A DNA stretch of 64,000 nucleotides from Nitrososphaerota archaeon. Its GTDB lineage: Archaea; Thermoproteota; Nitrososphaeria; Nitrososphaerales; Gagatemarchaeaceae. The stretch lies in NCBI GenBank assembly GCA_027339745.1, contig DAHWNW010000003.1, positions 1-64,000 of the forward strand. The letters run 5' to 3'. Under the pieces are notes generated by a model, which saw only the letters and a program-made list of their open reading frames with translations, was not told the DNA's origin and ran no database searches. Shown one piece after another: positions 19,418 to 51,689 of this stretch. The first letter of the stretch is position 1. Each line of letters begins with the position of its first letter. Position numbers and translations under genes: made by a program.

Positions 19418-19735
19418 CTATCCCTCCAGCGTCTTCATCTCGCTCACGTCGATATCGTTGCGCAGCCTATAGGCGACTATGACAATGGCCAGTATCACCG
19501 CCGCCTCGGCGGCGGCCAGTGCGATAGAGAACAGCACGACCGTCTGGCCGAGGGCGTTGCTCGCCTCTTGATAGGGGAGGTATTGGTTGAATGCGACGAA
19601 GTTCAGGTTCGCGGCGTTAATCATCAGCTCGACTGCGAAGAGGAGCCTCATGGCATTCCTCTTGGTCACCAGTCCATAGACCCCAATGCCGAAGAGGAGC
19701 GCAGAAACGACCACGAAGTCTGAAAGTGAGTTCAA
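19418..19735 (-). CDS. nuoK: NADH-quinone oxidoreductase subunit K
   Basis: FGIGVYGLVTKRNAMRLLFAVELMINAANLNFVAF...LAAAEAAVILAIVI. Confidence 0.95.
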   Translation of the reverse strand: MNSLSDFVVVSALLFGIGVYGLVTKRNAMRLLFAVELMINAANLNFVAFNQYLPYQEASNALGQTVVLFSIALAAAEAAVILAIVIVAYRLRNDIDVSEMKTLEG

Positions 19736-20214
19736 CCTGCGCTCCCCTCCCTGTCTACCCTGGATAGGGCGAGAGCGCCTACGATGGACGCAGCTAGGAC
19801 CAGCGCTAGCACCTCTAAGACTGGTGCGTAACCTGTCGAGATGAGCTTGCCTATGTCAACATAGGTCGCCGTGTTAGCTATGACCGAGTACTTCGAGAGG
19901 TCGCTCGCCAGGATTGCGAAAGTAAGAGCCAGTATTACAGCCACCGCGGCGATAACCCCCGCTACCGTAGTAGTCGACTTTGGCCTCACCTCCTTGGCCC
20001 ACCCCTCCTGCCTCACCAACATCACAGTGAACAGGATGAGGACCGCTACGGCCCCTATGTACACCGCAATCTGGAAGACAGCCACATAGGGGGCGTTAAG
20101 GAGGAAGTAGAGGGTGGCCACCCCGAACAACGAGCCCGCGAGTCCGATGGCGCCGTAGACGAGTTCCCTTGCTTCGAGAGAGACAATGGCGCCGCCGACC
20201 GTGACGATAGCCAT
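19732..20214 (-). CDS. nuoJ: NADH-quinone oxidoreductase subunit J
   Basis: FLLNAPYVAVFQIAVYIGAVAVLILFTVMLV. Confidence 0.93.
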   Translation of the reverse strand: MAIVTVGGAIVSLEARELVYGAIGLAGSLFGVATLYFLLNAPYVAVFQIAVYIGAVAVLILFTVMLVRQEGWAKEVRPKSTTTVAGVIAAVAVILALTFAILASDLSKYSVIANTATYVDIGKLISTGYAPVLEVLALVLAASIVGALALSRVDREGSAG

Positions 20215-20230: not shown

Positions 20231-21847
20231 TCAGTCGTATGTGACCACGCCTTTTTCGGTGTCGAACTTCACCTTGTACTTCTTGCCTTCTAACTTTGGC
20301 GGAACGGCGAGCATGTCTGGGGTGTACTTCAGGCCCATCTTGTCATAGGCCGCTAGCTCATAGTCGTTGGTCATGTCGAGCGCGTCGAAGGGGCAAGCGT
20401 CTACGCAGAGGCCGCAGAATACGCAGTTGTGCACAGAGATATTCGAAGCGACATAGCTATTGTCATCCTGGACCTCCAGATTATACACACGCTCCTCGAC
20501 AACGTCCCGCACTGAAATCTCCACCACAGGTGACACGACCATGTCGTCGGTCATCTTTATGGAACTGCATGGTTGGAGCGGAGAGTTCACTGCCGCGACC
20601 TCGATGAGTTCCCCCATCTTCTCGAGGTATGGACTATGAACCGCCACCGAGAAACACGGCTCTCGGGCCCTCTGCCTCGTGATGTTGATTGACGAAAGAA
20701 TCCCAAGCCTACTCAACAAGTAAGTGTACTGTGTCGCAAGGTCCTTGGAGGCCGTCCTGATCGCAAAGAAACTCGAATGTGTTGGGTGCCTGTACGAGCG
20801 ACGTTTACTGCAGTACCCGTCTCCCCAGTAAGCAGCCCGGATTATCTCAGACTGGAGCCCGGTGGGGAGGGTCAAGCCCCAAGGGGGCAAGGCTTTGCCT
20901 TGCATGGCCTCGAATTGTTTGAAGAAGCCAGCGGCTCGCGCCGATTCGACGACCACTTTGAGACCGTTCTGTCTCGCGTCAGGTCTAAGGTCGACTCCCT
21001 CGTTGAAGACCGCCATGACGCACCTGGCGATGTCATCGCGGAGGGCTTCTTCGTCCGCATCGATGCTGAAACTCACCTGATAGCGATCGCAACTGCCTTC
21101 CGACAGGTAGTAACCAACCAAACGGCCGAGTTCGTGGGTGAACTGCAGAGACACCACCTCTACTGTGAAGTAACCACCGCGGCCTGTAGGATGGTAGAGC
21201 TCGTAGTCGTAAGAAAGGGCGGGGACTTCCTTTACTTCGGTGATGATGGGCCTGGTCAGGTATGTCTTGTATCGGATCACAGACGGGTCAACCCATCGAG
21301 CCGTCCCCCCTGAATAAGCGAGGACTGGGTGCCCTTCGGTCACCGAAAGCTTATCGCTGTTCCCTAAAGTCTTGAAAGTGAACATCTTGCCGGTAAACTG
21401 CCGTTGAAAGGTCTTGGTAACAGATTTCAGGTTCCCCTTGTGGGTCAGCACTTTATCCCCCACCTTAATCTGCTCGATGGGTACGATGCCGTTCGAAGTC
21501 ATCACCGGCGTGCCCGAAGGGACACACCTCCCGTAGTCGACGGCGGGCCAAATCTCCTTCTTGTTTTGGGGCTTCCCTTTCTCGACCTTCTGCATGTCGA
21601 TGGCCACGGCGACCCCATCGCAGGCAATAGCGCAAAGCTGGCACCCGGTGCATTTCTCAAACCTCAGTATGTGCCTCCCCTTGAACCCGGGGAGCCCGAC
21701 CCCCTGGCGTGCGTCGTACCTGTATCCTTGCCCCTCCAGGTCCTGCTTCTGGTCCGGGTAGCGAAGGGTAATCCTATGGCGGAAGAAATGCCTCGTCCCT
21801 GACCAGGTCGCTACGAGCACCCCTTTGATGTAGCTCCAGGTTCCCAC
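20231..21847 (-). CDS. nuoI: NADH-quinone oxidoreductase subunit I (two 4Fe-4S clusters) interrupted in frame by an intein
   Basis: Exteins CTGCQLCAIAC...DYGR and CVFCGLCVDACPFDAL; GTG start at 21847 overlaps the nuoH stop; annotated ORF start at 22429 is out of context. Confidence 0.95.
   Translation of the reverse strand: MGTWSYIKGVLVATWSGTRHFFRHRITLRYPDQKQDLEGQGYRYDARQGVGLPGFKGRHILRFEKCTGCQLCAIACDGVAVAIDMQKVEKGKPQNKKEIWPAVDYGRCVPSGTPVMTSNGIVPIEQIKVGDKVLTHKGNLKSVTKTFQRQFTGKMFTFKTLGNSDKLSVTEGHPVLAYSGGTARWVDPSVIRYKTYLTRPIITEVKEVPALSYDYELYHPTGRGGYFTVEVVSLQFTHELGRLVGYYLSEGSCDRYQVSFSIDADEEALRDDIARCVMAVFNEGVDLRPDARQNGLKVVVESARAAGFFKQFEAMQGKALPPWGLTLPTGLQSEIIRAAYWGDGYCSKRRSYRHPTHSSFFAIRTASKDLATQYTYLLSRLGILSSINITRQRAREPCFSVAVHSPYLEKMGELIEVAAVNSPLQPCSSIKMTDDMVVSPVVEISVRDVVEERVYNLEVQDDNSYVASNISVHNCVFCGLCVDACPFDALDMTNDYELAAYDKMGLKYTPDMLAVPPKLEGKKYKVKFDTEKGVVTYD
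20426..21526 (-). other. Intein (367 aa) with LAGLIDADG homing endonuclease, inside nuoI
   Basis: Starts CVPSGTPVMTSNGIVPIEQIKVGDKVLT (block A), KLSVTEGHPVLA (block B), LGRLVGYYLSEG and IRAAYWGDGY (dodecapeptides), ends VYNLEVQDDNSYVASNISVHN followed by Cys+1. Confidence 0.95.
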
Positions 21848-23016
21848 TAGTGGACCACCCCAAGGGATACCAGCACCATGGTTAGGAAGATATTGGCAAA
21901 AGAGATTGCTAGAAGCTTCACCCACCCTGCTCTGAGGAGCATGTCGATCCTTAGCCTGGGCATGATGCTTCGCGGGAGCATGAGGAAGACGTCCACGATG
22001 GTGACCTTCACCAAGAACCAAACCACTGGAGGAACGGGGGCGGGACCTAGCCAGCCACCCAGAAAGAAGGTAGTGAAGAGCCCGGCCATAACATACATCC
22101 TCGTGAAGTTCGCCAGTTGGAAGCTCCCGAAGAGCATGCTCGAATACTCCGTCTGCCACCCGGCCACTAGCTCGCTGTCCGCCTCGGGAAGGTCGAATGG
22201 GATTCTCTCGAGCTCCGCCAGGGCCCCTATGTAGAACACCACAGCGGCCAGGAACTCCGGGACAATGTACCATATCCCCGTCTGGGCGTTGACGATATCC
22301 ATGAGATTGAGGGATCCCGCCAGGACGACCACGCCGACTAGCGACAATACCATCGGTATCTCGTAGGCGACCAGCTGATGGAGGGCTCTCAGTCCCCCTA
22401 AGAAGGGGAACTTGCTGTTGCTGGCCCATCCAGCTACGAGGACCACCAGCGGGGTGAAGCCCAGTATGGCGAAGACAAGAACCGCACCGACCGGAGGATC
22501 TGCGATGAAGACCGTGGGGGAGAGCGGGAGCAGTGCCACCAGAGCCCCGGCCACAGCCATAAGGGCTAGCGGGACCGCCAAGAATGTGGCTCTGTCCACC
22601 CCGTTGGGGATTACCATTTCCTTGAACGCGAGCTTGAGGAAGTCAGCCACGTTTTGGAGTATCCCTTCGAACCTCCCCGCGTACATAGGACCGGTCCTGA
22701 GCTGGATTTTTGCTGTCATCTTCCTCTCGACCCACCCCATCAAGATGGTACCGTAGATGGCGACGAAAGAGAAGCCGGGAAAGATCGCGAGAGCGAAGAT
22801 GGTTTTGAGAGGCTCGGTGGAGAGGAGGCGAAAGACGAAGGCGACGACGAGCCCCGGGTTGCTAGCTATCCTGACGAAGTCGACGGGGAGGTGGAGATAG
22901 GTACCAACCACATAGTAGAGCGGAAGACCCACCAATGCGAGGATAAGCAGGACGAAGAGCACTACGACGACTATCCGCTTGATGAAGCCTGTGAAGTTCA
23001 CGATAGGCTTCGACAT
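21847..23016 (-). CDS. nuoH: NADH-quinone oxidoreductase subunit H
   Basis: GWVERKMTAKIQLRTGPMYAG; ELERIPFDLPEADSELVAGWQTEYSSMLFG. Confidence 0.96.
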   Translation of the reverse strand: MSKPIVNFTGFIKRIVVVVLFVLLILALVGLPLYYVVGTYLHLPVDFVRIASNPGLVVAFVFRLLSTEPLKTIFALAIFPGFSFVAIYGTILMGWVERKMTAKIQLRTGPMYAGRFEGILQNVADFLKLAFKEMVIPNGVDRATFLAVPLALMAVAGALVALLPLSPTVFIADPPVGAVLVFAILGFTPLVVLVAGWASNSKFPFLGGLRALHQLVAYEIPMVLSLVGVVVLAGSLNLMDIVNAQTGIWYIVPEFLAAVVFYIGALAELERIPFDLPEADSELVAGWQTEYSSMLFGSFQLANFTRMYVMAGLFTTFFLGGWLGPAPVPPVVWFLVKVTIVDVFLMLPRSIMPRLRIDMLLRAGWVKLLAISFANIFLTMVLVSLGVVH

Positions 23017-28349: not shown

Positions 28350-31043
28350 TCAGGAGCTCTTCATCATCTCTAACTTCTCAGGGAGGTATGTGTCCACTAT
28401 GTAGCTGAGGCCATACCTCGCGAATGCCTCCTGCTCGCTTTTCCTCTTGTACTTCAGGAACGTCTCGAGCTCATCGTGCCACATCTTCTCCGTGTATCTC
28501 GGGTCGGACTTCAGCTCGTAGAGCCGCTTTATGTCAACCTCGGTGAGCTTGTCCGAGGGGAGCTTGTACTTCTGGATGTCGCTCGCGTAGACGCCGAGCC
28601 ACTTCGAATTGGGTGTCGTCAACTCTCTCAGATGGGCGGCGTTGGCCGAGTTGTGAAGCAATATTCCAGAGTTGCCCCCGATGAACCTCTCGACGCCAGG
28701 AACTGAGACGTCGTACACATATTCGTCTCTCTTGGATGTCTGCTCGATGGCGACTAATGGGTCAAACGCGACATCGCTCTCAGCAAGGCTCAACAATGAG
28801 GTCGCCAGTTCTCTAGATCTCCGCTCAATGGGGGCTTGGTCGCATTCCAGTATGTGGGCAAGCGCCCCAGTGACGTGCTCACGGTTCGCACCACCCTCGC
28901 GGTCTCGCTGGATTACCTCACAGATTCGCCGGTACAGAATCTTTGATTGAGAATGGTGGTCAGCATGACGGTGTATCTCCTTCCTCATACGAACTAAGCC
29001 GGTGTTTACTACTGGAAACGCCTTGGGCATCGGATAAGAGCTCCTCACAGTCGACTGGACGTGCGCTAGAATCAGAGCCCTGTCCTCGTCATGCAATACT
29101 GCAGACGCCACCTTCTCGACTTCCGAGGCACCTGAGACAACCAGGGAGACACCCCCTTTCCCAATCGACGGGAGTATCCCATTCATCGTCATGAGATAAG
29201 CGAGCTCAGACATCATAGATGGACTCTTCATTTTCCACACTACCCCTCCGGAGTCTGTTATGTAGCCGTCCCCGAAGCAACCCTTGAGGAACTCCAGGAC
29301 CTGCGACTTATTTGCGGAGAAGATGGCTGAAGGCAAGCGCTTGTGCGCGAACCCTGTTCCGCAGAGCCGCAGGAAGAGGAGCGCCGTCGGTGTTCCGCCG
29401 AAACGCAGGCATACCCCGTTCCCTTCTACATCTGTTATCCTCCTGATTGCGGATTCCGGGAAAGTTTCTCTTATGCAGTTTTCGGCGTCGTCCGCGACCT
29501 CGGGTTCGTGTAGACCGAAGCAGAGCTCCACCGCGCGAGGGATTCCTTTCGATTTCACTACCCTCCCTTCTGAGATGTAGTACCCCAAGAGTCTTGAGAA
29601 GCTCTTAGTTAGCCAGATGAGGGCAGGGAGCCTGTCAGGATGCTTGCCTTCGCGGCAACTGATGTAAGCGGAACGCAGCTTGGAAAGATTGGGCCCCTTC
29701 AGACCAGATTGGGAGGACTTCAGCTTCCGTCCAGAGTGATATTTCGAGCCTTGCCCCTGAATGTGTACATACAGGCTTGGTACCTTCGCTTCTTGGGATA
29801 ATTTCTGGAGTTCGGAAGCTGCATTCACCAGAACTGGGGGACAGCTCTTCCGCGAAGTGCTTCTGCCGATCACCAGCATTTCGCCGGGCTTCAAATCCGT
29901 GGTCGGAACTGATTGTATCTGTCCGTCCCTGAGCACAAAGACACTATGGTTCGGGGTGACCTCTACCGTTCTCCCGCTGGACGAGACGAGACGATAGAGG
30001 GGCCCGGTGTTTCTGTGGCGAATCGCAGCTGAAAGAGGTTTGAATCTGACTTTGTTATCGGTGTCTACAGTGAGGGTTTCATAAGGTATGGCGCCACAAA
30101 TCTCGTTCCCTGATGAGTCGTAGTAGCAGCCGTACTTCTCTATGCAGTCGTCCACGAACTGCCCGATAGGGACGGGCTGTACCCTCCCGGTAGAATCGCG
30201 GACGATGATTGGTTCGTCCCTCTGTACAGAGCCGCTCTTGATGACCATGGCTATGTGGGCCCCCCAGGGGTCAGCGTCACAGAGAATCCCCACCGGAAGG
30301 CCGAGTTCCTGGTTCAGCCGCCTGATGAGGAACCGCGTGGACCTTGGGGGCTGGCCTGCGGTGTTGATCAATATCGCCTTGTACTTGTGGTGGACCCTTT
30401 CTTCGATGAACCTCGTGAAGAGACCGCCCTTTTCTATCGCCAGGACGATCTCTGCGTCTGTGTCCCTGAACTCTGCTGTGGTGAGTGCGGGTCCAATCAT
30501 AACTCCGTCGGGGTTCGCCGAGAGATCAGCAGCCTTCCCCTCATAGCCTGGGACAGTGTATTCTATCGTCATATTCCCGAAGATGGCACTCCTTTCCTCT
30601 GGATAGATGTTCATCCCCTCCCTGGCCATCTGCATCAGGACCTCTAGGTCAGTGATCAGCTCATCAGACTCTGCTTGGTCCTGGAACTCAACATTGAACG
30701 CCTGGGCTGAATAGAACACGTCTCTGAGCGTGGACGTACGCTTTTCGTCAACGAGCTTCTTCGCGAAGTAGGCAAGCCAGATGAGCTGCGTGAAAGGGCG
30801 TATGTGCTTGATGTTCCCTGAAGACTTCTTCACGGTGGTGGCGCCGAGTATGAACTGCTGCAGCTTCTTGTCGTACACTATGTTGCGGACGGACCTGCTG
30901 GCCAGGGTCAGGCTGGGGAAGCGACCTTCGTCCAAGTCCGTGTAGACGCTCCCGCCGAGGTCCCGGAGGAGACCCTGGACGACGTTCTGCCTAGACTCTG
31001 CCGAACCTGTCGATTGTCTCTTGCTCGCCTTCTTGCTCGACAT
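28350..31043 (-). CDS. top6A: DNA topoisomerase VI subunit A, interrupted in frame by an intein
   Basis: GLPVGILCDADPWGAHIAMVIKSG / SANAAHLRELTTPNSKWLGVYASDI exteins; likely start MSSKKASKRQ at 31043 (the ORF extends to 31094). Confidence 0.95.
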   Translation of the reverse strand: MSSKKASKRQSTGSAESRQNVVQGLLRDLGGSVYTDLDEGRFPSLTLASRSVRNIVYDKKLQQFILGATTVKKSSGNIKHIRPFTQLIWLAYFAKKLVDEKRTSTLRDVFYSAQAFNVEFQDQAESDELITDLEVLMQMAREGMNIYPEERSAIFGNMTIEYTVPGYEGKAADLSANPDGVMIGPALTTAEFRDTDAEIVLAIEKGGLFTRFIEERVHHKYKAILINTAGQPPRSTRFLIRRLNQELGLPVGILCDADPWGAHIAMVIKSGSVQRDEPIIVRDSTGRVQPVPIGQFVDDCIEKYGCYYDSSGNEICGAIPYETLTVDTDNKVRFKPLSAAIRHRNTGPLYRLVSSSGRTVEVTPNHSVFVLRDGQIQSVPTTDLKPGEMLVIGRSTSRKSCPPVLVNAASELQKLSQEAKVPSLYVHIQGQGSKYHSGRKLKSSQSGLKGPNLSKLRSAYISCREGKHPDRLPALIWLTKSFSRLLGYYISEGRVVKSKGIPRAVELCFGLHEPEVADDAENCIRETFPESAIRRITDVEGNGVCLRFGGTPTALLFLRLCGTGFAHKRLPSAIFSANKSQVLEFLKGCFGDGYITDSGGVVWKMKSPSMMSELAYLMTMNGILPSIGKGGVSLVVSGASEVEKVASAVLHDEDRALILAHVQSTVRSSYPMPKAFPVVNTGLVRMRKEIHRHADHHSQSKILYRRICEVIQRDREGGANREHVTGALAHILECDQAPIERRSRELATSLLSLAESDVAFDPLVAIEQTSKRDEYVYDVSVPGVERFIGGNSGILLHNSANAAHLRELTTPNSKWLGVYASDIQKYKLPSDKLTEVDIKRLYELKSDPRYTEKMWHDELETFLKYKRKSEQEAFARYGLSYIVDTYLPEKLEMMKSS
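28650..30230 (-). other. Intein (527 aa) with LAGLIDADG endonuclease, inside top6A
   Basis: N-term SVQRDEPIIVRDSTGRVQPVPIGQFVDD (Ser1); VEVTPNHSVFVL block B; LLGYYISEG and FLKGCFGDGYIT; C-term VYDVSVPGVERFIGGNSGILLHN followed by Ser+1. Confidence 0.95.
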
Positions 31044-32619
31044 TTTCTCCCTCCTGTTTGTTCGCCGGTTCCCCCTCGGGTTGACCCGCTTCATCGATTT
31101 CGTCGGTCTCCGCCCCCTCTCCGATGAGCTTCCTGTACTTCGGGAGTGCCTTCTTCCCAGCCAGCTCGGTGGAGAACTGGGCGATCAGTGGAAGGTACTT
31201 CCCGTAGATGTTCATCTTCTTTTGGACAGCCTCCATGCTTCCCTTGCGCGACAGGAATATTCCGAGCCTCCGCAGCGCCTCCCTGACGGCGTTCCTGATT
31301 TCCCTCTGTATCTCAGGCCTGTCGGCGATATACTCCTTCCCGACGGTCTTGTATGGGATCCTCGTGCTTGCGATGTGCGTTATAACACCGACCGGGGCGT
31401 CGGCGGGGACGTGATACCTTCGCCAGTCCACCTCCTCGTTTAGCACCTCGAAGCTAACGTCAGAGCTCTCGTCATAGAGCAGAGGGATCCGGTTGGCGAA
31501 CCTGAACAGTTTGACCCCTGGCTGCAATACCTTTCCCCCGTAGGCAACCCCCACCTCGACAAGGAACGGGAAGCCGGAGTACGACGACGGGGGCCTCGTC
31601 ACCACAGTCGAGAACTCCGGCTGGAGCTCCTTGGCGATGCCGGCCATGAGAATCTCCTCGCTGATAGGGGATAGGACGGCCGCGTCGGGTTGAAGGAAGT
31701 CAGGGAACCTTTGGAGTGCGTCTACCACAGCGACTATCTGGTTGGTGCTGAGTCGCTTCGGCGGGAGCTTCGGGCTCACCCCCGCGAATTCTAGGAACTT
31801 TGTCGCTATCTTGTCCCCGACTCTGTGGAAGTGGGTGACCATGAATGATTTCATGTCGTGCTCCTCTGACACCTTGACTATGCGCTTGAACGCCTCCACG
31901 TCTACCCCGTAGGGATGCGGTAGGGTCTCCTTAGGCGGAACAGGCATCGAGGTGGTCGCCCTTTCGTAGTAGGTTATCTGACCTGTAGGGTCGACGAAGG
32001 TCAGGTTGGCGTAGCTCGCAACCATGGCTGTCTGCTTGAAGTAGTCTGCTATCTTCTGGGATGCCCGGAGGTAGTCGCCCTCAAGGACGATGTCCACCCT
32101 GGTCCCCGTGGAGCCGTTGGCGTCGCTGTTGAAGCGCTTGAGCACCGTGGGCCTGTTCTCCCCTATGTCTATCATCATCTGGAAGCCATACCTGCGCTTC
32201 CCGTCAGGAGAAGTGGTGATGGTGACTGGTTTGTTGGTGGTGATCTGACCATAGAGGATGGCCATAGTCCCTCCGAGCCCGAACATCCCCCGGGACTGCC
32301 TCAGGACATACTTCGACCCGTAGAAGACCTTCCCAAAGGCGCTGGGCACGTGCTGCGGCGCCACTCCTGTGCCGTTGTCGATGACCGTGAGTCTATAAGG
32401 CTTGGGATCTGGGAGCTCCAGGTTCGGGTTCTCCGGGGTGATTCTGACGTAGATGTCCGGCGGGGACCTTACCATCTCCGTCGAGTCCAATGAGTTCTCG
32501 ACGAGCTCCCTGATGGCCATGTATAGTGCGCGCGCGGGGTTAGTGAACCCTGCCAGGTCGCGATTGCGGTAAAAGAATTCTGAAGGCGATATTTCCGTGA
32601 AAGTGGCCTTGCTGCTCAG
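30991..32619 (-). CDS. top6B: DNA topoisomerase VI subunit B
   Basis: MAIRELVENSLDS, DNGTGV, GKVFYGSKYVLRQSRGMFGLGGTMAILYGQ; conserved N-terminus ISPSEFFYRNRDLAGFTNPARALY lies upstream of the annotated ATG (32520), so a non-ATG start (CTG at 32619?) is likely. Confidence 0.93.
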   Translation of the reverse strand: MSSKATFTEISPSEFFYRNRDLAGFTNPARALYMAIRELVENSLDSTEMVRSPPDIYVRITPENPNLELPDPKPYRLTVIDNGTGVAPQHVPSAFGKVFYGSKYVLRQSRGMFGLGGTMAILYGQITTNKPVTITTSPDGKRRYGFQMMIDIGENRPTVLKRFNSDANGSTGTRVDIVLEGDYLRASQKIADYFKQTAMVASYANLTFVDPTGQITYYERATTSMPVPPKETLPHPYGVDVEAFKRIVKVSEEHDMKSFMVTHFHRVGDKIATKFLEFAGVSPKLPPKRLSTNQIVAVVDALQRFPDFLQPDAAVLSPISEEILMAGIAKELQPEFSTVVTRPPSSYSGFPFLVEVGVAYGGKVLQPGVKLFRFANRIPLLYDESSDVSFEVLNEEVDWRRYHVPADAPVGVITHIASTRIPYKTVGKEYIADRPEIQREIRNAVREALRRLGIFLSRKGSMEAVQKKMNIYGKYLPLIAQFSTELAGKKALPKYRKLIGEGAETDEIDEAGQPEGEPANKQEGENVEQEGEQETIDRFGRV

Positions 32620-49624: not shown

Positions 49625-50608
49625 GGCAGATTTATGAAGCGGAAGGCGGCCCTAAACAAAGCTATGGGGAAAGTCGAGAAACTGGTGATTATAGGGTCTG
49701 GGCCGGCCGGGCTGACAGCTGCCATCTACGGGTGCCGGGCAGACCTTGAGCCTCTTGTGTTCATGGGGACCAAGTACGGCGGACAACTGATGCTCACGAG
49801 TGAAGTGGAGAATTTTCCGGGGTTCCCTGACCCGGTCCTTGGGCCGGACCTGATAACGAAGATGAAGTCACAGGCGGAGAGGCTTGGTGCGAGGCTTGTC
49901 CAGGAAGATGTGGTCAAGGTCAACTTCAAGACTTACCCGTTTGAGGTATACACGAGCGGCGGAGTGACGCAAGCCCTGACGGTCATCATAGCAACCGGTG
50001 CCAATCCAAGGAGACTCGACCTCCAGTCGGAGATGAGATTGATGGGAAAGGGAGTGTCAAACTGCGCCGTCTGCGACGGCTTCTTCTTCAGAGGGAAGAG
50101 GGTGGCGGTGGTCGGCGGAGGGGACACCGCCATGGAAGAGGCAACATTCCTGACCAAGTTCGCTTCATCGGTGCAAGTAATCCACAGGAGGGACGAGCTC
50201 AGAGCGAGCGCCGCCCTGAAGAAAGAAGCGCTGGAGAATCCTAAGATCAGCTTCGTCTGGGACTCGGCAGTCACAGAGGTGATAGGGGAGGGGAAGGTCG
50301 AAGGGATCAGGGTCAAGAACCTGAAGACCGGGGTTGAAAGCCAGATGCCTGTGGACGGGCTGTTCGTCGCAATAGGCTATGAACCAAACACCGAGATATT
50401 CAAGGGACAGGTGGAGCTGGATCCCAAGGGTTACTTGGCTGTCCGCAACGGGACAGAAAGCAGCGTGCCAGGCGTCTTCGTAGCAGGGGACGTCCATGAC
50501 TTCCGCTACAGGCAGGCAATCACGGCGGCGGCCGATGGATGTAAAGCTCTCCTCGACGCCGAGAAGTTCGTAAAGCAGAAGCTGGAAGCCAAGATACCTA
50601 GTCGGTGA
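49625..50608 (+). CDS. trxB: Thioredoxin reductase (FAD/NAD(P) dependent)
   Basis: VIIGSGPAGLTAAIYGCRADLEPL, SNCAVCDGFFF redox motif, VVGGGDTAMEEA. Confidence 0.95.
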   Translation, partial: GRFMKRKAALNKAMGKVEKLVIIGSGPAGLTAAIYGCRADLEPLVFMGTKYGGQLMLTSEVENFPGFPDPVLGPDLITKMKSQAERLGARLVQEDVVKVNFKTYPFEVYTSGGVTQALTVIIATGANPRRLDLQSEMRLMGKGVSNCAVCDGFFFRGKRVAVVGGGDTAMEEATFLTKFASSVQVIHRRDELRASAALKKEALENPKISFVWDSAVTEVIGEGKVEGIRVKNLKTGVESQMPVDGLFVAIGYEPNTEIFKGQVELDPKGYLAVRNGTESSVPGVFVAGDVHDFRYRQAITAAADGCKALLDAEKFVKQKLEAKIPSR

Positions 50609-51689
50609 CGGACACGAACCTGTCCTCAGAGAAGGACTTGCTGAGGGGTCCGACTATGGAGGTTCTGTAGCCGCACCGCCTGCACCTGCTCTTGCCGTCC
50701 AGGTTGTATTCTAGTATCTCATAGCCGTAGCGCTTGATGAGGACGGCTTTGCACCCAGGGCAGTAGGTGCTCTCGTCGGGATGGCCTGGCACATTACCTA
50801 TGTAGACGTAGTTAAGGCCCGTCTTCCTCCCTATTGCGACGTGTCTCTCAAGAGTCTCGATCGGGGTCGAAGGGGAGTCCATCATCTTGTAGTCAGGATG
50901 GAAACGTAGGAAGTGGATGGGGGTGTCCGGGCCGAGGTTGTCGTAGACCCATCGGCTCAGCTTTTCTGCAGCTTCGAGGGAGTCCCCCACGGCGGGGACA
51001 ATCAGGTCTGTAATCTCGATGTGGACGTCCGTCTTCTGCTTCAGGTCCAGCAGGGTTTGGAAGATAGCCTGAGCGTCTGGTATGCTGATGTATCGGCGTA
51101 CGAAATCGGTCTCGCCGCTCCCCTTGAAGTCTACGGTGATGCAGTCGAGGAACTCCTTCATCATCGCCACAGCTTCGGGAGTATCGAAACCGTTAGAGAC
51201 GAATATGTTGAAGAGCCCTCGGGACCTCGCGATCTTCCCGACGTCCCGGGCGTACTCGATGAAGACCGACGGCTGGTTGTACGTGTAGGCCACGCCTTCG
51301 CAACCATATTCGGCAGCCGTCGCCACCAGCTCTTCGGGTGTCTTTTGTATCCCCGACGCCTGTCTCCGCTGGCTGATGTCATAGTTCTGGCAGAAGCGGC
51401 ATGCCCATGAGCACCCGCTGGTCGCGATTGAGAAGACCTTCGAGCCGGGACGATAGTGGACTACAGGTTTCTTCTCAATCGGGTCGATTTGAGCCGCCAT
51501 TATCCTGCCGTAGTCAAGCAGGTAGAGCCTCCTGCCAACGACCCCTCTTATGCCGCAGAACCCCACCTGCCCCTCCCCTATCTGGCAAGCCCTGGCGCAA
51601 GCGGTGCACTGGATTCTCCCGTTCCGGAGGTCTCTGAACAGTTCAGCCTCCCTCCCTTCAGGCTTAGTGAGCCGGGGCACAGAAGACAC
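50598..51689 (-). CDS. Radical SAM protein, pyruvate-formate-lyase-activating-enzyme-like (AmmeMemoRadiSam-type)
   Basis: SIATSGCSWACRFCQNYDIS (CxxxCxxC), GVAYTYNQPSVFIEYARDVG. Confidence 0.92.
   Translation of the reverse strand: MSSVPRLTKPEGREAELFRDLRNGRIQCTACARACQIGEGQVGFCGIRGVVGRRLYLLDYGRIMAAQIDPIEKKPVVHYRPGSKVFSIATSGCSWACRFCQNYDISQRRQASGIQKTPEELVATAAEYGCEGVAYTYNQPSVFIEYARDVGKIARSRGLFNIFVSNGFDTPEAVAMMKEFLDCITVDFKGSGETDFVRRYISIPDAQAIFQTLLDLKQKTDVHIEITDLIVPAVGDSLEAAEKLSRWVYDNLGPDTPIHFLRFHPDYKMMDSPSTPIETLERHVAIGRKTGLNYVYIGNVPGHPDESTYCPGCKAVLIKRYGYEILEYNLDGKSRCRRCGYRTSIVGPLSKSFSEDRFVSVTD

Follow-up and report, generated by a model that had tools for sequence, protein, structure and literature searches.

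The MoaA intein of P. abyssi is located in the cluster motif of its host protein. As summarized in PMC3922620 and PMC10663303, Callahan et al. 2011 found that a Cys-3/Cys1 disulfide controls its splicing, and these sources also describe a Cys1/Cys+1 disulfide that can form in the Pab PolII intein and controls its splicing. For 18 Thaumarchaeota genomes, a survey lists a single intein and no gene with more than one (PMC10643990). While class 1 LAGLIDADG inteins are known, the host described here, NuoI, appears to be new: a search of mostly open-access literature returned no report of a NuoI intein, and none of the papers it listed on Thaumarchaeota, complex I or Fe-S proteins describes such an intein by title and abstract. 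Respiratory complex I thereby joins the proteins known to carry inteins.

The window analyzed, a stretch of 64,000 nucleotides from contig DAHWNW010000003.1, comes from a 0.76-Mb MAG of an uncultured Nitrososphaerota archaeon that is 60% complete. On the minus strand, the nuoI precursor gene (20231..21847; 538 aa; NCBIfam NuoI) begins with a GTG start overlapping the stop codon of nuoH (21847..23016, minus strand; Pfam NADHdh, 1.1e-95). Downstream, the ORF list gives a gene (19732..20214, minus strand) that we take to be nuoJ-like, followed by genes presumed to be nuoK/M/L/M/N-like to ~12733, all named by position and family features. The identity of the host as NuoI is given by a profile search in which the split exteins matched NCBIfam NuoI (1.5e-25), by its two CxxCxxCxxxC motifs, and by its place in the nuo operon with nuoH directly upstream. 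The first 4Fe-4S motif, CTGCQLCAIAC (21620..21652, minus strand), contains no insert and closes with CD, not CP. The second, CVFCGLCVDACP (20390..20425, minus strand), is preceded by an in-frame insertion with the junctions YGR|...HN|CVFCGLCVDACP. The N-extein (107 aa, 21527..21847, minus strand) ends in DYGR, and the C-extein comprises 64 aa plus stop (20231..20425, minus strand). An earlier note, made from the letters of this DNA, had looked to NuoI homologues lacking the insert as a check on its reading; seven intein-free alleles were found in the same family (L022-L028), and the extein without its insert aligns with them from end to end.

That note had placed a full-length class 1 homing intein at 20426-21526, and these coordinates proved exact: on the minus strand, they encode 367 aa without a stop codon, from CVPSGTPVMTSN to VASNISVHN. 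The class 1 residue set is complete and invariant among 12 homologous inteins at this site (NuoI-a), with the Cys1 nucleophile of block A (21524..21526), T63 and H66 of block B TEGH (TxxH, 21329..21340), the penultimate H366 and terminal N367 of blocks F and G (VYNLEVQDDNSYVASNISVHN, 20426..20494), and the extein Cys+1. The insert also has two LAGLIDADG motifs, ELGRLVGYYLSEG (21095..21133) and SEIIRAAYWGDG (20816..20851), all features being on the minus strand, and both motifs retain their acids (E143 in LSEG and D236 in WGDG). Blocks A and B, the two motifs and the terminal HN are thus all present, as the note had listed them. Pfam searches matched LAGLIDADG_3 (8e-9) and Intein_splicing (9.6e-8), the latter at 32.4 bits, slightly below the curated cut-off of 35.8. 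An AlphaFold2 model of the intein obtained from 12 relatives (pLDDT 79.9, pTM 0.80) was matched by Foldseek to PI-SceI, the Tli and Pho VMA inteins, PI-PkoII, PI-PfuI and I-DmoI. The match to the VMA inteins (E ~1e-17) indicates, on the basis of this model, a HINT fold, and the two helices, each with its acid, together with the I-DmoI-like fold, indicate a LAGLIDADG endonuclease. AlphaFold2 modelled the complete precursor poorly (pLDDT 54.6), and for this reason we claim no active-site geometry. Residues, Pfam, fold and empty alleles agree that the NuoI insert is a class 1 intein, predicted to be self-splicing. An identical intein is present in the record 'archaeon isolate DBS2-4.bin21', and relatives are labelled Nitrososphaerales, Thaumarchaeota or Nitrososphaerota.

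The position of the insert has a direct consequence. The +1 nucleophile is the first cysteine of the second CxxCxxCxxxCP motif (20423-20425) and hence also a cluster cysteine, so that splicing must precede assembly of the second-motif cluster; on both points the earlier note was right. In complex I, this is cluster N6b, to which both the first and the third cysteine of the second NuoI motif are ligands. We propose, with a probability of about 0.9, that the insert is a selfish class 1 LAGLIDADG intein spreading through the nuoI gene of a Nitrososphaerota family. After translation, the intein would be excised by Cys1, TxxH, His366-Asn367 and the extein Cys+1, and YGR would be rejoined to CVFCGLC, which would make the motif whole again ahead of 4Fe-4S cluster assembly. 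The YGR/CVF codons of an empty nuoI allele would be the cleavage target of the endonuclease, and repair would copy the intein in. A related intein at the third cysteine would make two elements, with targets 18 bp apart, which may compete for the motif and sometimes share it. Splicing activity, DNA cutting and this competition are inferred from the sequences, in which the anatomy, the insertion points, the empty, a, b and ab alleles, the lateral spread and the decay to mini-inteins can be read directly.

The conservation of the intein bears on whether it could be a dead relic, which would no longer splice and would leave NuoI non-functional, the cell using another copy or none. Although a MAG at 60% completeness leaves room for another nuoI copy, the assembled part of this genome yielded no other full NuoI. 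In addition, variation among 12 diverged copies falls at other positions and leaves every catalytic splicing residue intact and unchanged, the splicing parts show omega values of ~0.06-0.25, and the exteins are open and conserved. We therefore regard a relic as very unlikely. Most pairs also show purifying selection on the endonuclease half (omega ~0.04-0.25, with one pair at 0.51).

The nuoI gene was read in 31 genomes of the window's family, giving 12 alleles with an intein at site a, 8 at site b, 5 at both and 7 empty; a sixth double allele, in G386, was found after this count. Site a lies before the first cysteine (YGR|CVFCGLC), and site b before the third (CVFCGL|CVDACP). In the window, site b (20407..20408, minus strand), 18 nt downstream of site a, is unoccupied. 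In the double alleles, the two inteins are separated by just six residues, CVFCGL or CVFCAL. The site-a inteins of relatives share 43-64% identity with that of the window, and the site-b inteins (NuoI-b) form their own set, related to NuoI-a. Most site-b inteins close with Ser-Asn rather than His-Asn, yet are conserved (L014, L017, L018, L019, L021, L052). Beyond the family, an Aigarchaeota genome (L095/L305) has an intein at site a, and site-b inteins occur in Bathyarchaeota (L097, L302-L304) as well as in another family (L301). Nearly all these genomes are draft MAGs, a circumstance in which an assembly artefact or chimeric reads, the latter one of the refutations foreseen by the earlier note, might be suspected. 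However, the same junctions recur in many independent assemblies, among them contigs of 100-770 kb and, for site b, the single-contig genome G005. Homologues sharing the identical position in more than 10 other genomes from different projects exclude chance and chimera, and we consider an artefact hardly credible.

Two ideas on the relation between the sites were set aside. Mutual exclusion of a and b was dropped, their avoidance being not significant among the genomes of the family (Fisher p=0.27) or of the genus (p=0.067). The origin of b by mis-homing, through a likeness between the two target DNAs, is weak: sites a and b match at 10.2/18 bases, and the middle Cys codon matches b equally well (10.5/18).

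Several comparisons indicate movement of the intein between genomes. G012 has intein a; G015, whose extein is the closest to that of G012 (DNA 92.3% identical), has neither intein. Between G012 and G017, the intein a DNA is 95.2% identical and the extein DNA 84.1%, with an intein dS of 0.10-0.16 vs an extein dS of 0.76, so that an intein shared by two genomes can be much younger than the extein around it. The window's intein groups with those of G011, G014 and G025, whereas its extein groups with that of G017. On the extein tree, which rests on ~530 nt and has few strongly supported branches, AU tests rejected the intein clades {G000,G011,G014,G025} (p=5e-12) and {G012,G017} (p=6e-6). The strong incongruence between intein and extein and the contrast in dS show mobility into empty alleles. 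Decay is also found: the site-a inteins are mini-inteins of 172-182 aa in four doubles (G007, G008, G031 and G032), and that of G036 has lost the motif-1 acid (LSRG). Double occupancy is not always paired with decay, since in G386 neither endonuclease appears to be damaged. Together, these full-length, decayed and mini forms correspond to the expected homing cycle. Searches of IMG/VR returned no relatives of NuoI-b and only distant relatives of NuoI-a, with identities of at most 27% for full-length, intact hits high in the ranking, and no viral carrier was found there for either intein.

Host names of the related inteins were taken from recognized sequence motifs unless a profile search is cited. 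The best-supported clade (99/97) contains NuoI-a, NuoI-b, an ABCE1 intein (CIGCGI|C) and one SufB intein (EG|C), and is adjoined by OorB (WCPG|C) and IscU (before CGDLMW) inteins, themselves grouped at 89/85. The union of all six as one clade is neither rejected nor established (AU p=0.126). Other inteins of the genus or family lie in NuoB (before CAITGG), aconitase (GCTT|C), Mrp (CPH|C), a radical-SAM AmrS-like protein (GCSWA|C) and SufB (two sites). From knowledge of E. coli NuoB, the cysteine of CAITGG is an N2 ligand. One SufB (L059) carries two inteins, at EG|CSAP and VR|CDALL. The AmrS-like intein (L258) shows by eye no LAGLIDADG motifs and a Vsr-looking nuclease stretch, suggesting that inteins of other descent may likewise have settled on an Fe-S cysteine; an intein-free AmrS-like homologue lies inside the window (50598-51689). 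In G005, which was chosen for having NuoI-b, five of the six detected inteins are at Fe-S sites and the sixth is in MCM. In the complete genome G015, the hits that were identified include inteins in MCM, DNA polymerase, RadA and a putative SAM synthetase, and none at an Fe-S site was found among them. The proposal that all inteins here target Fe-S proteins was rejected on these G015 hits. Given how G005 was picked and what G015 contains, the Fe-S pattern is real but not general. An ordinary cause is sufficient for it, as invariant Cys codons are good landing sites with a usable nucleophile.

The use of a cluster cysteine as +1 nucleophile, with free cysteines at +1, +4 and +7, raises the question of whether the intein was co-opted as a switch, in which oxidation or metal would block NuoI splicing and reduction restore it, so that complex I would mature solely under conditions permitting Fe-S assembly. 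The MoaA and PolII inteins offer precedents (PMC3922620, PMC10663303), and related inteins have a Cys-3, at site b (CGL|C) and in OorB (CPG|C), aconitase (CTT|C), ABCE1 (CGI|C) and Mrp (CPH|C), where such a trap is possible. At site a, however, Tyr-Gly-Arg precedes Cys1, and the MoaA-type Cys-3/Cys1 trap cannot form; for a PolII-type trap, NuoI-a has both Cys1 and Cys+1, as far as residues go. The Cys-3 of the relatives is not evidence of selection either, because it is automatic for inteins landing on a later cysteine of a CxxC motif. Finally, as would suit a dispensable parasite, the insert is present in some and absent from others of a set of sisters and close relatives and is laterally mobile, and therefore the hosts do not need the NuoI-a intein. 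Thus, the gating of complex I put forward in the earlier note is not supported, and we hold a co-opted switch to be unlikely. It is likewise improbable that an archaeal intein lineage has specialized on Fe-S ligand cysteines, comprising the inteins of NuoI (twice), OorB, IscU, ABCE1 and some SufB, and imposes a redox- or iron-dependent delay acting as a checkpoint on respiration and Fe-S metabolism. If true, maturation of the apo-proteins would be delayed post-translationally.

The window's source is a small, intein-rich archaeal genome. A second intein in the window (28650-30230, minus strand; 527 aa, Ser first) lies in topoisomerase VI subunit A (28350-31094) at IKSG|S...HN|SANAAHL, with the same C-terminal junction in G023 (L267). 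Contigs C22 and C11 of the same genome (L072-L081) carry inteins in GlmS and in IF2/eIF5B-like, eIF2-gamma-like and PEP synthase/PPDK-like proteins. Elsewhere in the collection, a histidine ammonia-lyase-like protein (L228, L246) has an intein inside its Ala|Ser-Gly triad, the prospective MIO cofactor, and DNA polymerase B and topoisomerase VI subunit B (L066, L067) have two inteins each.

For the selfish class 1 intein proposed here, what stands out is the repeated settling of related inteins on cysteines that bind clusters, including two sites within a single 4Fe-4S motif, six residues from each other. Since empty, a, b and a+b alleles occur naturally, with full-length, degenerate and mini forms, competition between neighboring homing elements can be tested in one host protein, as can, through the a/b contrast, redox control of splicing with and without Cys-3.

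Compared with known systems, NuoI-a resembles the Tli and Pho VMA inteins, PI-PkoII, PI-PfuI and PI-SceI in having a HINT domain and a two-motif LAGLIDADG endonuclease, but its host is a respiratory complex I subunit and identity is ~15%. Its endonuclease and C-terminal part weakly match tetraether lipid synthase Tes (NCBIfam NF045703; 7e-8, far below cut-off), an intein-containing radical-SAM host, which is a different protein from NuoI. The Mycobacterium tuberculosis SufB intein (PMC8891592) is similar in that its host is an Fe-S assembly protein. In the window's archaeal genus, too, there are SufB inteins at EG|CSAP; those of the genus form a separate branch, L099 being the sole archaeal SufB intein that groups with NuoI. 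As far as it is described in PMC3922620 and PMC10663303, the P. abyssi MoaA intein likewise lies in a 4Fe-4S protein and uses a Cys1 nucleophile; it has Cys-3 and a native Cys-3/Cys1 trap, whereas NuoI-a has Arg-1, Gly-2 and Tyr-3, and NuoI-b has Cys-3. The Haloferax MCM-a/MCM-d pair (PMC10643990) also consists of two mobile inteins with nearby targets and single, double and empty alleles, while the NuoI sites are six codons apart within one Fe-S motif.
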